The translations under genes and the position numbers were made by a program. Shown here piece after piece: positions 24,982 through 30,425 of a stretch of 34,016 nucleotides of DNA. Under the pieces are notes generated by a model. The model saw only the letters and a list, made by a program, of their open reading frames with translations. It was not told where the DNA came from and did not search any database. The DNA comes from Natronolimnohabitans innermongolicus JCM 12255 (GTDB lineage: Archaea > Halobacteriota > Halobacteria > Halobacteriales > Natrialbaceae): contig NZ_AOHZ01000090.1 of NCBI RefSeq assembly GCF_000337215.1, forward strand, positions 1 to 34,016. Direction: 5' to 3'. Every line of letters begins with the position of its first letter. The first letter of the stretch is position 1.

Positions 24982-25761
24982 ATGGACGATCTCGAGTCAT
25001 TCGCCGACGAGATCCGCAGTGCAGAGACCGTCGTCGCCTTCACCGGCGCGGGGATCTCCGCCCCCTCGGGCGTCCCCACCTTCCGCGGCGACGACGGCGT
25101 CTGGGAGAAATTCGACGAGGGCCAGTTCACCTACGGTCGGTTCCAGCGCGACCCCGAAGCGTTCTGGGACGATCGCGTCGGCCTCCAGCGGGAGATGTTC
25201 GACGGGACGTACGAACCCAACGCGGCCCACGAGGCGCTGGCCGAACTGGGACGGACCGACCACCTCGAGGCGATCCTCACGCAAAACACGGACGGACTGC
25301 ACGGAGACGCCGTCGACGCGGTCGTCGGCGCCGACGACCCGGAGCCGGCGATCCTCGAACTCCACGGCAACTCTCAGCGCGTCCGGTGTACCGGCTGCGG
25401 GACGCGCAGGGACGGCGATCCGATCTTCGAGCGCGCGGCGAACGGCGATCTCCCGCCGACCTGCGACTGCGGTGGCGTCTACAAACCCGACGTCGTTCTC
25501 TTCGGCGAGCAACTTCCCGGTGCGGTCATCCAGCGCGCCCGCACGCTCGCCCGAGAGAGCGACGTATTCATCGCGATCGGCTCTTCGCTCGTCGTCCAGC
25601 CCGCAGCGTCGCTCCCGCGACAGGCGGCATCCTCCGGCGCTACTGTGGCGATCGTCAACCTCGAGTCGACGCCCGTCGACGGTGCGGCCGACGTGATCCG
25701 TCGCGAAGACGTGACCGACGTGTTGCCGCAGCTGGTTGAACTCGTGACGGACAGCGCATAA
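24982..25761 (+). CDS. cobB: Sir2-family NAD-dependent protein deacylase
   Basis: This 259-residue sirtuin shows all family motifs: AFTGAGISAPSGVPTFRG (NAD binding), TQNTDGLH, catalytic histidine in LELHGN, a zinc site from CTGCG and CDCGG, KPDVVLFGEQLP, GSSLVVQPA, and NLESTPVDGAADV near the end. The second cysteine pair is CDC, not CxxC: PPTCDCGGVYKP. That spacing occurs in some haloarchaeal members. It would remove acetyl or other acyl groups from lysines, releasing nicotinamide and O-acyl-ADP-ribose. A decayed copy of its 3' end lies 4.6 kb downstream, beyond the biuret island. Confidence 0.93.
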   Translation: MDDLESFADEIRSAETVVAFTGAGISAPSGVPTFRGDDGVWEKFDEGQFTYGRFQRDPEAFWDDRVGLQREMFDGTYEPNAAHEALAELGRTDHLEAILTQNTDGLHGDAVDAVVGADDPEPAILELHGNSQRVRCTGCGTRRDGDPIFERAANGDLPPTCDCGGVYKPDVVLFGEQLPGAVIQRARTLARESDVFIAIGSSLVVQPAASLPRQAASSGATVAIVNLESTPVDGAADVIRREDVTDVLPQLVELVTDSA

Positions 25762-25984
25762 CGCAGCGCCGCACCCGACGGTTCGGAGCCATCGCGACGG
25801 CCGAGACGAATCACACACTGATCTGTCTGATTCACACATCCGCGGTACTCGATTGTAAACCCATTTCAAATAACACGGCCACACTGTGATCTATACGGAG
25901 ACAATGACCACATTCGTTTGATCCTAATAGCTATCCTTACTGTGCCAACTCCTGGAGGGTTCCTTAGGATATACTGACCAACTG

Positions 25985-25994
25985 TTAAGTATAT
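25985..25994 (+). promoter_or_regulatory. TATA box of the NCS1 permease
   Basis: TTAAGTATAT is centred about 24 nt before ATG 26013, which fits a leaderless transcript. The surrounding 150 bases are unusually A/T rich for this genome. Confidence 0.6.
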
Positions 25995-26012
25995 CTGTGC
26001 TCTCGACCAATT

Positions 26013-27383
26013 ATGACGAAGTATGATGGAGCAATAGGGAAGGTTTCGCACAAATTGCGCGAATTTTTCAAACATGATCCAGACCAAGACGAATGGGCGG
26101 AGCGGCGCGTGCCGGGTTCCGAGCGACTTGGTGTTTGGGAGCCAGCGACCGTCTGGATCGGATTCGCCATTGCGTTTTCAATCGCGTTTATCGGGAGTCA
26201 GATCTACTTCGGCCTCGGAATGCCCGAAGCGTTGTACGCGATCGTGATCGGAAACGTCTTCCTCGCGATCTATTCGTCACTGATCGCCGTCGCCTCGGTA
26301 GACGGCGGCTTGAACTTCCCGCTTCAAATGAAGGAGGCGTTCGGGAAGAAGGGAGCACTACTACCGATCGCTGTTGTCGGACTCCTCGTCAACGGGTGGT
26401 ACGCCTTTCAAGCGTGGTTGGCGGCCGACGTTATTCGCGCCGCGTGGGATCCGAGCTGGTATCTCCTCGTCGTCGGAGTCGTGATACTCTTCGGACTGCC
26501 ATCGCTGATCGGCGTCGGTGCGATGTCGGACGTCGTCGAGAAATTAGTCATTCCGATCATGGTGTTGTTCGCCGCATACATTCTATTCGCACAGGTGATC
26601 CCCGCGGGAACGAGTATTCTCAGTCAACCGGCCCCCGGTGAATCGATTCCGTTCTTCGTCGGCGTCGGTCTCACTTGGGGGACTTTCGCGGTGAGTGGGA
26701 CGGCAACGGGAGATATCGTGCGATTCGCCGAAGATTCGAAACAAGCGGTCCTCGCGACGATAATCGCCTTCCTCATCTGCAACACGAGTATGATGGTTCT
26801 CGGTGCGCTCAGCGCCGCTGCGCTCAACAGTCTGGATCCGTACTTCGGAATGATCGGGCTACTCGGATCCATTCCCGTCGTGGCGGTCGCCGTTGTGAGC
26901 CTCTGGTCGACCTGTGACGCCTGCCACTACAACGCGACGATGAGTTACACGAACCTCTCGTCGATCATCTCGTGGCGGATTGCCGGCGTAATCGGGATCC
27001 TCGCGGCGCTGATCACGGCGACGACGGAGGTCATTTCCAACCTCGAGAACTGGCTCAATCTGATTAGCATCCTCGTGCCGCCGATCGGTGGCATCATCAT
27101 CGCCGATTACTTCCTGCTTCGCCGCGGCTTCGGCTACGCCGAGACCCGCGTCGCAAACTACAACTGGGCGGCGATCACCTCGTTCGCCGTTGCCGTCGGC
27201 GTCAACTACTACGCCTACGTCACTTATCCGCAACTGCTGCCGGGGTTAGCCGGATTGCTCCTGTGTCTCGTCGCCTATCCGGTTAGCGTGAAAGTCGGCG
27301 TGGCTGTCCTCGGAAGAACGCAGATGGGCTCGACGTTCGAGCCTCACAACAGCGTCACCGAGACGGGACCGGCAGACGACTGA
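26013..27383 (+). CDS. NCS1 family permease (nucleobase/hydantoin/ureide type)
   Basis: This 456-residue transporter has about 12 hydrophobic helices and the NCS1 plan of cytosine, purine, allantoin and hydantoin carriers: a charged N-terminus (HDPDQDEWAERRVPGSERLG), then WEPATVWIGFAIAFS, the loop LNFPLQMKEAFGKKGALLP, ISNLENWLNLISILVPPIGG, and IIIADYFLLRRGFGY. It is convergent with the amidase-biuret hydrolase operon, which suggests it imports the substrate of that pathway, but biuret transport by NCS1 is only inference. A/T-ending codons are more common in its first 250 codons than in the housekeeping genes, consistent with acquisition. Confidence 0.87.
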   Translation: MTKYDGAIGKVSHKLREFFKHDPDQDEWAERRVPGSERLGVWEPATVWIGFAIAFSIAFIGSQIYFGLGMPEALYAIVIGNVFLAIYSSLIAVASVDGGLNFPLQMKEAFGKKGALLPIAVVGLLVNGWYAFQAWLAADVIRAAWDPSWYLLVVGVVILFGLPSLIGVGAMSDVVEKLVIPIMVLFAAYILFAQVIPAGTSILSQPAPGESIPFFVGVGLTWGTFAVSGTATGDIVRFAEDSKQAVLATIIAFLICNTSMMVLGALSAAALNSLDPYFGMIGLLGSIPVVAVAVVSLWSTCDACHYNATMSYTNLSSIISWRIAGVIGILAALITATTEVISNLENWLNLISILVPPIGGIIIADYFLLRRGFGYAETRVANYNWAAITSFAVAVGVNYYAYVTYPQLLPGLAGLLLCLVAYPVSVKVGVAVLGRTQMGSTFEPHNSVTETGPADD

Positions 27384-27831
27384 CGGTCGCGGTCTTTTTT
27401 AGTGCAGTACCAACGGGGATCTCAAGCGAACAGTCGTGCGGTTGTGACAGTGAGAGTAAAATGGTGGAGAGATCAGCCGCCAGAAACCGGACCAATGCGC
27501 TAAATTCGCTGGGTGAGAGGATAACGTCCGCATCGAACGAGTTAGCCGTTCAAATCGTCGCTGATCGTCGAGACAGCGTTCACTCCTTCGCCAATCAGAT
27601 CGCCTTCGGGTTCAACGCTGCTTTTCTGTCCTTCGGAGATCGTGACTTCCGTTCCGCCGTACTTCCGAGACGCTTTCGGACGCCCTGTGGAGAGGGGGGC
27701 GACTCGTCCGCTCGAGTTCACTGTTACTATCTTCTCCTTCGAGAAGAACAACGACCGAAATTGTGGTCGGATCGACGATACCTCCGATACTCAGACTGGA
27801 AAATCGGGTTCCCAACTACTGATAGATCGTC
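27384..27831. other. Gap between convergent permease and amidase; one doubtful small ORF
   Basis: This 448-base stretch has no recognisable gene. The best frame is on the minus strand, 27542-27751 (69 residues, starting MFFSKEKIVTVNSSGRVAPL), with a moderate GC3 and a reasonable, Ser/Gly-rich composition, but no domain I know and no clear promoter. It could be a small unrecognised protein or a gene remnant. Plus-strand frames here are basic and Arg/Ser-rich and look spurious. Confidence 0.3.
27395..27400 (+). terminator. T tract after the NCS1 permease
   Basis: A TTTTTT run lies 11 bases after the stop codon in the context GGTCTTTTTTAG. This is a good archaeal intrinsic terminator, making the permease a single-gene transcript. 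Confidence 0.55.
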
Positions 27832-29211
27832 TTAGTTCGATGAGGACGGTATCGGTTCCGCCGTCGCTCGGGTCGAGCCGGCGGTCTCACTTCGAATCGC
27901 CGCGCCGATGGATGCGATTCGGGCGTCTTCGAACGCCTCCCCGACGACCGTTACGCCGAACGACGGTCCGTCCTCGAACGAGCGAGTTGGAACTGCAACG
28001 GCCGAGAGATCGAGGAGGTTCACGAAATTCGTATAATAGCCGAGGTTCGAGTTCAGCTCGACCGGGTTCGACTGAACTGCGTCGATCGTGTAAGTGGTTC
28101 CCGCCGTCGGAACAACCAGCGCATCGATTCCAGCGAGGACCTGCTCGGCTTCTCGTCGAAGCGTCTTGAGCTGGTCGAACGCTTCGAAGGTATCGACGGC
28201 GGAGTACGCGTCTCCACCGCGGATGATGTCGGCGACGGTCGGATTCACTTCGTCAGGATGGGCCTCGATAAACTCGCCGACGGCCGATAATCGGTCCGCG
28301 ACCCACGGACCACCGTAGAGCAGTTCGGCAGTTTTTCGGAAGGGCGTGAAGTCAACCGTCGTTAGCTCCCCGAACCGCAGTTCCACTTCCTCGATCGTGT
28401 CGTCGAACAGCTGTGCAGCCTCCTCATCGCCGAAAAACTCCAGTTCGTCTGTGGTTGGAACGCCGATCGTGATACTGGAGAGTTCGGTCTTCGATGGTTC
28501 GAGATCGTCGGCCGAGCGACGTGAATACGGATCATCGGAGTCGAACCCGGCGGCGACGCCTTCGACGCGAAGCGCGTCGTCGGTCGTCCAAGCGAAGATA
28601 GACACACAGTCCAGGTCGGCACAGGCCGGGACGACACCACGAGTACTGAGCACCCCGCGCGTCGGTTTCAGTCCGACGAGTCCGTTGAACGCCGCGGGGA
28701 TGCGTCCCGAACCGGCAGTGTCTGTGCCAAGCGCGAACGCGACATGCTCCCGTGCCACCGCCACCGCAGAGCCGCTGGAAGACCCGCCAGAGATGTACGC
28801 GTCGTTGTGTACGTTCCGACACTCTCCGTACGGGCTTCGCGTCCCGACGAGACCCGTGGCGAACTGATCCATGTTCGTCTTGCCGATCAGAATCGCACCG
28901 GCATCGATCAGCCGGTCGACAACGGTGGCATGAGCCGCCGGTTCGTACGCGTAGGCCGGACAGCCGGCAGTCGTCGGGAGGCCCGTATAATCGATATTAT
29001 CTTTCACGGCGAAGGGGATTCCGTAGAGAGGGTTCTCTGCGAGGTCAACATCGCCGAGTTCGGCTACCTCCGCCAGGACGTCGGCTCGATCACGAGTCGC
29101 GATCCACGCGTTCGTATCGTCCGTTTCGATCCGATCGAACGCGTCTTGGACGAGGTCTTCGGGGGTTCGCTCACCGGCTTCGTAAGCGTCGAGTAGTTCC
29201 ATTACCTCCAT
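27832..29211 (-). CDS. atzF: Allophanate hydrolase-type amidase (amidase domain only)
   Basis: This 459-residue amidase-signature enzyme has the Ser-cisSer-Lys triad at Lys70 (GIPFAVKDNID), Ser144 (GGSSSGS) and Ser168 (GTDTAGSGR). The Lys-Ser-Ser spacing (74 and 24) is the same as I recall for AtzF (Lys91, Ser165, Ser189). The segments RIPAAFNGLVGLKPTRGVLS and VVPACADLDCVSIFA, and LYGGPWVADRLSAV later, are specific to allophanate hydrolases among amidases. It would convert allophanate to ammonia and CO2. Family members are usually about 600 residues with a C-terminal domain, which is missing here. Its ATG directly follows the TAG of the biuret hydrolase gene, with a second in-frame ATG nine bases on, so the two are an operon. 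Confidence 0.85.
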   Translation of the reverse strand: MEVMELLDAYEAGERTPEDLVQDAFDRIETDDTNAWIATRDRADVLAEVAELGDVDLAENPLYGIPFAVKDNIDYTGLPTTAGCPAYAYEPAAHATVVDRLIDAGAILIGKTNMDQFATGLVGTRSPYGECRNVHNDAYISGGSSSGSAVAVAREHVAFALGTDTAGSGRIPAAFNGLVGLKPTRGVLSTRGVVPACADLDCVSIFAWTTDDALRVEGVAAGFDSDDPYSRRSADDLEPSKTELSSITIGVPTTDELEFFGDEEAAQLFDDTIEEVELRFGELTTVDFTPFRKTAELLYGGPWVADRLSAVGEFIEAHPDEVNPTVADIIRGGDAYSAVDTFEAFDQLKTLRREAEQVLAGIDALVVPTAGTTYTIDAVQSNPVELNSNLGYYTNFVNLLDLSAVAVPTRSFEDGPSFGVTVVGEAFEDARIASIGAAIRSETAGSTRATAEPIPSSSN

Positions 29212-30075
29212 CTACGCGACACCCGATTCGACGGCTTCGATAAACCGCTCGGAGTCCGATACCCAGCCGAAGACGCCGCCTTGCATCTTTATCTGCTTGA
29301 TCGCGGCCTCGCGGTTTCCGTCGTCCGTCGCGCCCGTAGCGTCTTTCAACAGGAGACACCAGTAACCACGATCGTTCGCTTCCCGCATGATGGTATGGAC
29401 GCAAACGTCGGTCGTGATTCCGGCGATCACGAGGTGGGTCGTACCGAGCCGTTCGAGAACCAGCCCGATGTTCGTGTTCGCGAACGCCCCTTTCGTCGGT
29501 TTATCGATGACGGGTTCACCGGGCTCGGGAGCGAGTTCATCGATAATGTCCCAGTTTTCGTGTTCGCGTGTCAGAAGCGGTCCGACCCCGCCAGCCGGTG
29601 TTTCCCCGATTCCGTCTCCATCTCCGGCCATCTTGCTTCGAAGTAGTTTGTTGAAAGGAGCATCCGAGAGATCCTGTTTGTGCCCCTCCCGGGTATGAAC
29701 GACATCGATATCGGTTCGACGAACCGCCTCGAGGACGTTACTGATCGGTTGAACGGCTCGCTGCGTCCGTGAAAGATCGTATCCCATCGCGTCGACGTAG
29801 CCGTTTTCACCACAGAAGTCCCGTTGCATATCGATGGAGAGAAACGCAGTGCGACCGGAGTCAAACTCCACCATCGCCGTTTCTCCGAAGTCGGGACAGT
29901 CCTCGACCGGAACTCGGAACAGATCGCCTTTCGGAGCTCCATACAGCCATTCGGGGAACTCAATTACTCCTGTCTCTTCGTATTTCTCGTACGTTTCTTG
30001 AACTCTTTTGAGATAGTTATCTCTCGCGTCTTTTTCAGCAAATTCCTTGCTTTCCCCGGAAGTGCTTTGCTTCAT
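29212..30075 (-). CDS. biuH: Isochorismatase-fold cysteine hydrolase, probable biuret amidohydrolase
   Basis: This 287-residue protein has a 75-residue N-terminal extension and then a cysteine hydrolase domain with triad Asp82 (SIDMQRDF), Lys192 (IDKPTKGAF) and Cys225 (GITTDVCVHT). Stretches that match bacterial biuret hydrolases as I recall them are CGENGYVDAMGYDL, VVHTREGHKQDL, PLLTREHENWDII, MREANDRGY and IKMQGGVFG. It would hydrolyse biuret to allophanate and ammonia. The gene for an allophanate hydrolase follows with no gap, which strongly supports biuret over ureidoacrylate. A triuret hydrolase remains possible because the two are close homologues. ATG 30075 was preferred over the in-frame ATG at 30141, which lies upstream of the likely TATA box. 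Confidence 0.82.
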   Translation of the reverse strand: MKQSTSGESKEFAEKDARDNYLKRVQETYEKYEETGVIEFPEWLYGAPKGDLFRVPVEDCPDFGETAMVEFDSGRTAFLSIDMQRDFCGENGYVDAMGYDLSRTQRAVQPISNVLEAVRRTDIDVVHTREGHKQDLSDAPFNKLLRSKMAGDGDGIGETPAGGVGPLLTREHENWDIIDELAPEPGEPVIDKPTKGAFANTNIGLVLERLGTTHLVIAGITTDVCVHTIMREANDRGYWCLLLKDATGATDDGNREAAIKQIKMQGGVFGWVSDSERFIEAVESGVA

Positions 30076-30106
30076 TGTCCTATGACAGACCAGTTTGGAG
30101 AAATTG

Positions 30107-30114
30107 TTTAAACT
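30107..30114 (-). promoter_or_regulatory. TATA-like box of the biuret operon
   Basis: The minus strand reads GTTTAAAC, about 35 nt before ATG 30075, giving a leader of about nine nt. Upstream (30139-30175) is an A/T-only-like tract, and an inverted pair ACTTCA-ATATC-TGAAGT sits at 30182-30198. Confidence 0.45.
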
Positions 30115-30326
30115 TCCGTCTAACCAATGTGGGGGTATCAAAATAATTTATATCTATATATGTCTAAATAACTCCGATATGACTTCAATATCTGAAGTGC
30201 AGTGCGCGAAGAATTTCCGACGGTGGTACCGATGGCGAACGCCAGATCGACGACCGAGCGCGGTGCGTTGATGACGTCAACACGATCGGATCTATCGGTG
30301 GCAGTAGCGATCTCATTCCCCCCGAG

Positions 30327-30425
30327 CCTCGAGTCGACGTCCGTCGATAGCGCCGCCGCCGTGATTCGTTGCGAGGACGCGACCGACGGGTGTCGCGGCT
30401 CGCGGAATTCGTGGCGGAGGCCGAA
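30327..30425 (+). pseudogene. Remnant of a sirtuin gene 3' end
   Basis: Bases 30327-30388 match the end of the intact sirtuin gene (25662-25725) with mostly third-position changes: CCTCGAGTCGACG, CGTCGA, GTGAT, ACCGACG are shared. The translation SLESTSVDSAAAVIRCEDAT parallels NLESTPVDGAADVIRREDVT. After a one-base shift the match continues as GVSRLAEFVAEA against VLPQLVELVTDS. The 5' part of the gene is absent and the preceding 30 bases match poorly, with an extra PPS-coding insert before LEST. This is a broken paralogue or a leftover of rearrangement, not a functional gene. Nothing else in the 418-base gap between the biuret operon and the kinase is recognisable. Confidence 0.75.

Follow-up and report, generated by a model that had tools for sequence, protein, structure and literature searches.

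A candidate three-gene module for biuret uptake and hydrolysis in the haloarchaeon Natronolimnohabitans innermongolicus

Introduction

Do a cysteine hydrolase, an allophanate hydrolase and a permease, encoded side by side in a haloarchaeon, constitute a route for the use of biuret as a source of nitrogen? The question is raised by positions 26013-30075 of the window, that is, of the whole 34,016-nt stretch of DNA that was analysed (Natronolimnohabitans innermongolicus JCM 12255, GCF_000337215.1, contig NZ_AOHZ01000090.1). A preliminary description had proposed biuret (or triuret) as the substrate, within a pathway that it regarded as probably undescribed in haloarchaea. The claim of novelty stands as regards the genes, a literature search of open-access papers having found no report of the complete set in haloarchaea, but it does not extend to archaea in general, for which biuret use had already been proposed (PMC12625717; PMC5793203). 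An N-extended biuH was put forward in ammonia-oxidising archaea (mSystems 2025), with no collocated atzF and an unsettled substrate (PMC12625717). In Biolog plates, the Haloarcula strain NA6-27 gave a positive score for growth with biuret (PMC5793203). Bacteria are known to possess the pathway, and for archaea a portion of it had been proposed; new here are the haloarchaeal hosts, a true allophanate hydrolase coupled directly to the N-extended enzyme, and the packing of the genes into a compact, transferable unit.

Results and Discussion

Organization of the Module

The module comprises three open reading frames, all of them intact, and the following features can be placed in and around it:

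26013..27383, plus strand: NCS1-family permease (CodB-like), predicted biuret importer, 456 aa (Pfam, NCBIfam and PDB matches)
27832..29211, minus strand: allophanate hydrolase (AtzF-like), amidase domain only, 459 aa (NCBIfam, PDB 4cp8, residues)
29212..30075, minus strand: N-extended BiuH-like cysteine hydrolase, predicted biuret amidohydrolase, 287 aa (PDB matches, residues, tree, model)
29869..30075, minus strand: sequence encoding the N-terminal extension (~69 residues) that characterises the clade (alignment and AlphaFold model)
25921..30159, no strand: putative transferred unit, delimited by the extent of DNA homology to a Natronorubrum daqingense plasmid (blastn, GC/GC3)
25659..25723, plus strand: 3' end of a sirtuin gene, left copy of the 65-nt direct repeat flanking the module (sequence comparison)
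30327..30391, plus strand: degenerate remnant of the sirtuin 3' end (83%), forming the right-hand copy of this repeat (sequence comparison)

On the minus strand, the BiuH-like hydrolase gene is followed by the amidase gene with zero gap between them, and the plus-strand permease gene converges on this pair, so that both elements of the arrangement initially described, the abutting hydrolase genes and the NCS1 permease facing them, are confirmed. The most likely function of the three-gene module, and a highly probable one judging from the sequences, is to take up biuret and hydrolyse it to ammonia.

The Hydrolase Conserves the Biuret-Binding Site of BiuH

The hydrolase presents the Asp-Lys-Cys triad that had been recognised from the start, formed by D82, K192, and C225, with K195 and Q265 as substrate residues. 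In Rlv3841 BiuH, hydrogen bonds to biuret are provided by Asp36, Lys145, Ile170, Thr171, Cys175, and Gln215, while Phe41, Tyr47, and Val174 line the pocket and Lys142 is the third member of the triad (PMC5806882). All biuret-contacting residues of BiuH (PDB 6AZQ) are identical in the hydrolase, namely D36, F41, Y47, K145, I170, T171, V174, C175, and Q215 in BiuH numbering, together with K142; F41, K145, T171, and Q215, shown or proposed to be important in Rlv3841 BiuH, are thus all retained. Besides these contacts, the fold and the triad are shared with Rlv3841 BiuH (6AZO, 6AZQ), with ~55% identity over the catalytic domain. On the contrary, ~50 additional N-terminal residues forming an ordered extension, Ala147, Ile in place of the conserved T179, and a position in a separate clade set the two proteins apart.

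Six positions separate TrtA from BiuH (PMC7948467). Five of them are BiuH-type in the hydrolase (Y47, Y53, D173, T200, and V218, against F, N, E, Y, and I in TrtA), while the sixth, at 147, is Ala, which is the TrtA state but is likewise found in the characterised RhdBiuH; in terms of TrtA F35, N41, A134, E160, Y187, and I205, the hydrolase has Y, Y, A, D, T, and V. TrtA of Herbaspirillum sp. BH-1 (6XIX) shares the isochorismatase-like fold and the triad with the hydrolase, but not five of the six discriminating positions, nor its place in the tree. Where BiuH has K145 and Q215, the characterised guanylurea hydrolase (GuuH) from P. mendocina MET carries Tyr and Glu, as opposed to Lys and Gln in the BiuH-like hydrolase. 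An isochorismatase-like hydrolase encoded on a Klebsiella plasmid (L124, 3270-5678), adjoining a nitrile hydratase operon, has Thr at the Lys145 position and Glu at the Gln215 one, and probably acts on another substrate.

Matches to solved structures amounted to 234 bits for R. leguminosarum BiuH (6azo), 230 for RhdBiuH, 151 for TrtA, and 91 for RutB, and the closest folds to the AlphaFold model of the hydrolase (mean pLDDT 91) are those of biuret hydrolases, which come first both by sequence and by fold, before TrtA and RutB. In this model the N-terminal extension is predicted to be mostly ordered, with a helix at 7-35 and strands at 52-58 and 66-72. The NCBIfam BiuH model matches the hydrolase at 8e-83. 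With the BiuH equivalog NF050097 the hydrolase scores 277 bits, below the cut-off of 370, while three other N-extended proteins score 280-295, TrtA-type enzymes 228-246, and classical BiuH 424-428 bits; since this cut-off is missed, the enzyme is here called BiuH-like and not certified as BiuH. The RutB model TIGR03614 yields 115 bits, versus a curated threshold of 377.95. Although the family cut-off is missed, the residues argue strongly for the hydrolase functioning as a biuret hydrolase.

In a phylogeny of 82 proteins with RutB as the root, the branch of which is very long, the BiuH-like hydrolase is found within a clade of 45 N-extended proteins (support 100/100), included in a 61-row group that also contains both characterised biuret hydrolases, 6AZO and 6XJM (94/98). 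The TrtA group lies outside this group and RutB is a distant outgroup in the RutB-rooted tree; branching inside the 61-row group is poorly supported, including the exact position of the N-extended clade. The placement with ureidoacrylate or nicotinamide hydrolases that the preliminary description had named as contrary to its reading is not observed, the hydrolase standing among biuret hydrolases. The enzyme lies outside the classical BiuH clade, in the N-extended sister clade. A placement with RutB, GuuH, or TrtA is rejected on the grounds of tree and residues.

The four haloarchaeal hydrolases are monophyletic (100/100), other N-extended members coming from Nitrososphaeria, Bathyarchaeota, Clostridia, Dehalococcoidia, Desulfovibrio, Enterococcus, and Acholeplasmataceae; the literature search found no enzyme assay for any member of the clade. 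A long-branched N-extended subclade (L079-L082; Pigmentiphaga, Acidobacteria, Chloroflexota) has lost Phe148, a residue retained by almost every other row; the specificity of this subclade may have shifted.

Neighbourhoods of the N-Extended Relatives

In four bacterial loci (L047, L051, L063, and L074) the N-extended hydrolase adjoins cyanuric acid hydrolase, whose product carboxybiuret leads to biuret (PMC7948467), and this feeding of biuret supports it as the substrate of the clade. These loci also contain AllF/AllG and carbamate kinase, with AllH seen in L047; allophanate hydrolase was not seen within the stretches of them examined, and an energy-conserving fermentation of cyanuric acid or biuret via carbamoyl phosphate is possible there. 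In general, the N-extended genes of bacteria and ammonia oxidisers often occur with AllFGHK rather than with AtzF, bacterial and thaumarchaeal relatives being often near AllFGHK, PucR, and NCS2 permeases. In anaerobes, the hydrolase appears to be paired with a carbamoyltransferase and carbamate kinase in place of allophanate hydrolase.

The N-extended enzymes of ammonia-oxidising archaea share with the one described here the 100/100 clade, ~58-64% full-length identity and, sometimes, an adjoining codB permease, but in ammonia oxidisers the neighbour of biuH is either AllFGHK or a GatA-like amidase without the allophanate hydrolase Arg, whereas here a true allophanate hydrolase abuts. In Nitrosospira sp. 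Nl5 (L077, 1544-6280), an N-extended biuH directly follows a gene for a 1206-residue protein that clusters with CT_A_B proteins and has a biotin carboxylase-like start, a possible urea carboxylase. Plasmid-borne use of biuret nitrogen is also a trait of the rhizobial cyanuric acid/biuret operon (L123), which encodes an ABC transporter, BiuH, AtzD, and a TrtA-like protein; the present module has no AtzD, ABC transporter, or TrtA, and contains one NCS1 permease instead. The Escherichia coli IncK2/Z plasmid pCh101 from chicken (L122, 5965-12627) carries a TrtA-type hydrolase together with DUF2877, FdrA, DUF1116, carbamate kinase, and cytosine permease genes, and hydrolases resembling this TrtA-type enzyme are present on many E. 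coli plasmids.

Allophanate Hydrolase and Permease

The amidase scores above both NCBIfam allophanate hydrolase cut-offs (PRK08186, 633 bits versus 487; TIGR02713, 580 versus 511; E-values of 6e-190 and 4e-174), and its best structure match is AtzF 4CP8, with 460 bits. Its triad, K70-S144-S168, lies in a region that aligns to AtzF 4CP8 without gaps, in agreement with the AtzF-like triad spacing observed early on. The triad and the Y299/R307 pair are likewise present in each of the three characterised allophanate hydrolases compared; in the Granulibacter structure, Tyr and Arg at these places are substrate residues.

The amidase domain, triad spacing, and Tyr/Arg motif are common to AtzF of Pseudomonas sp. 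ADP (4CP8) and the Granulibacter allophanate hydrolase (4GYR), but the amidase here, unlike them, has no C-terminal domain, the match stopping at profile positions 422/563 and 455/600. According to PMC3944691, the amidase fragment of AtzF retains activity on its own, so that the missing domain would be no bar to function.

The permease belongs to the NCS1 family by its Pfam Transp_cyt_pur match (95 bits versus a cut-off of 23.5; 5e-27). It gives 189 bits with the NCBIfam cytosine permease model, below the cut-off of 326, and matches CodB (PDB 7qoa) at 5e-35; its nearest characterised relative carries cytosine. The permease is linked to the module in three of the four haloarchaea, and its substrate is probably biuret.

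Urea Routes and Occurrence among Haloarchaea

Whole-genome profile searches, on a genome 99.78% complete, found no urease alpha subunit, no CT_A_B carboxyltransferase (control search positive in six genomes), no AllG, and no AtzD cyanuric acid hydrolase (control positive in all three AtzD-holding records). With no CT_A_B carboxyltransferase there is no urea carboxylase, as the preliminary description had assumed. Unless the assembly has missed a carboxylase gene, the CT_A_B and urease searches rule out a urea or guanidine route, and the lack of AtzD speaks against internal cyanuric acid as a source of biuret.

The BiuH-like hydrolase is present in 4 of 392 Halobacteriales genomes and the allophanate hydrolase (AtzF) in 5, including all four with the hydrolase; in the fifth it lies near a Rieske oxygenase. 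The chance of this co-occurrence would be ~5e-9 if genomes were independent, but they are not, the genes being linked and the four hydrolases being monophyletic, which precludes counting four independent events. In Halomicroarcula sp. SYNS111 (L136, 3504-12126) the BiuH-like gene is found amid genes for an Amidohydro_1 hydrolase, three amidases (one of them allophanate-hydrolase-like), and a periplasmic binding protein, with an IclR regulator slightly further on, and no NCS1 permease was seen at this locus. In the haloarchaeal MAG QS_6_64_34 (L041, 8893-11648), a tandem pair of allophanate-hydrolase-like genes (62% and 60% to the amidase) adjoins the BiuH-like gene, a third copy being located elsewhere (L133).

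Taken as a whole, the tree, active-site residues, neighbour gene, haloarchaeal co-occurrence, and absence of a urea route support the original biuret reading. Its bracketed extension to triuret fares less well: since five of the six specificity positions are BiuH-type, triuret is unlikely as the main substrate, although a side activity is possible.

Probable Transfer, Selection, and a Possible Insertion Site

On a plasmid of Natronorubrum daqingense the three genes recur with their arrangement unchanged, under no more specific annotations than cysteine hydrolase, allophanate hydrolase, and cytosine permease. DNA homology with this plasmid (blastn) covers 25921-30159 at 83-85% nt and includes the upstream regions of both transcription units, while no homology was found by blastn for the spacer at 27388-27819. 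Relative to the N. daqingense copies, dN/dS is 0.075 for the hydrolase, 0.104 for the amidase, and 0.059 for the permease, values that indicate strong purifying selection on all three genes. GC3 is 0.63-0.74 in the module, whereas the sirtuin and aspS genes on either side reach 0.84-0.89, and GC is also lower; this composition and the patchy occurrence suggest that the genes were acquired by recent transfer.

The 65-nt 3' end of the sirtuin gene is repeated in degenerate form (83%) on the opposite side of the module, which suggests insertion or recombination at this site. The aspS-sirtuin gene order is kept in many relatives, among which neither a matching module or kinase downstream nor a clean empty site was found. 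A scan for bacterial-type promoters, a method unsuited to archaea, gave no more matches than chance.

Proposed Pathway and Alternatives

The module would act as a nitrogen-scavenging unit gained by horizontal transfer, with the NCS1 permease importing biuret. Cys225 of the BiuH-like enzyme would then attack the biuret, with Asp82 as the base, Lys192 supporting Asp82, and Gln265 presumably supplied by the partner subunit, as it is in BiuH. Given the full conservation of the biuret-binding residues, the predicted products are ammonia and allophanate. The latter would be cleaved by the allophanate hydrolase through its Ser-Ser-Lys triad, with Tyr299 and Arg307 holding the carboxylate, to yield ammonia and N-carboxycarbamate, which would then fall apart into ammonia and CO2. 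In some relatives a C-terminal domain aids this N-carboxycarbamate step, which here would proceed without such a domain. The expected net yield is three ammonia per biuret.

Other readings place the substrate elsewhere. The N-extended clade might be a distinct subfamily of ureide hydrolases with a natural substrate other than biuret, set by the ordered extension, and with lineage-specific exits that would be allophanate hydrolase in haloarchaea, AllFGHK in anaerobes, possibly conserving energy through carbamoyl phosphate, and the GatA-like amidase in ammonia oxidisers; we regard this as improbable. A TrtA-like role for the hydrolase, with triuret or another longer ureide as its main substrate and carboxybiuret or biuret leading on to the allophanate hydrolase, is quite improbable: the active sites of TrtA and BiuH are near-identical, single-copy RhdBiuH has some triuret activity (PMC7948467), and the NCBIfam BiuH cut-off is missed, but the discriminating positions, the branching outside the TrtA group, and the lower TrtA score (151 versus 234 bits) all favour BiuH, and the module has neither a second hydrolase nor a carboxybiuret decarboxylase gene. 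Action of the clade on some other natural substrate, such as a ureide derived from oxalurate or allantoin, with the allophanate hydrolase as an incidental neighbour, is very unlikely. The frequent AllFGHK, PucR, and NCS2 surroundings and the substrate called unsettled in ammonia oxidisers (PMC12625717) would fit it, yet the biuret contacts are fully conserved, four relatives adjoin cyanuric acid hydrolase, all four haloarchaeal genomes with the hydrolase have a true allophanate hydrolase, and the genome has no AllG.

That the allophanate hydrolase takes part in degrading urea or guanidine, next to an unrelated amidase, recalls the urea amidolyase and guanidine pathways from which such enzymes are best known, but is hardly credible in a genome with neither CT_A_B carboxyltransferase nor urease alpha subunit, and for a neighbouring gene that abuts and encodes the BiuH residues. 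Likewise, patchy distribution, lower GC, and the adjoining degenerate sirtuin remnant could be expected of transferred genes decaying or unexpressed and without any role, but the frames are intact and dN/dS against the N. daqingense copies is 0.06-0.10 for each of the three, which makes such a fate extremely unlikely.

Conclusions

If the biuret reading is true, haloarchaea would be biuret users via a defined, compact, and mobile three-gene route. A module of this kind might account for the growth on biuret scored for the Haloarcula strain in Biolog plates (PMC5793203). As the first archaeal case found of an N-extended biuH coupled directly to a true allophanate hydrolase, the module described here would also provide a clean setting for the role of the N-extended BiuH in ammonia-oxidising archaea.
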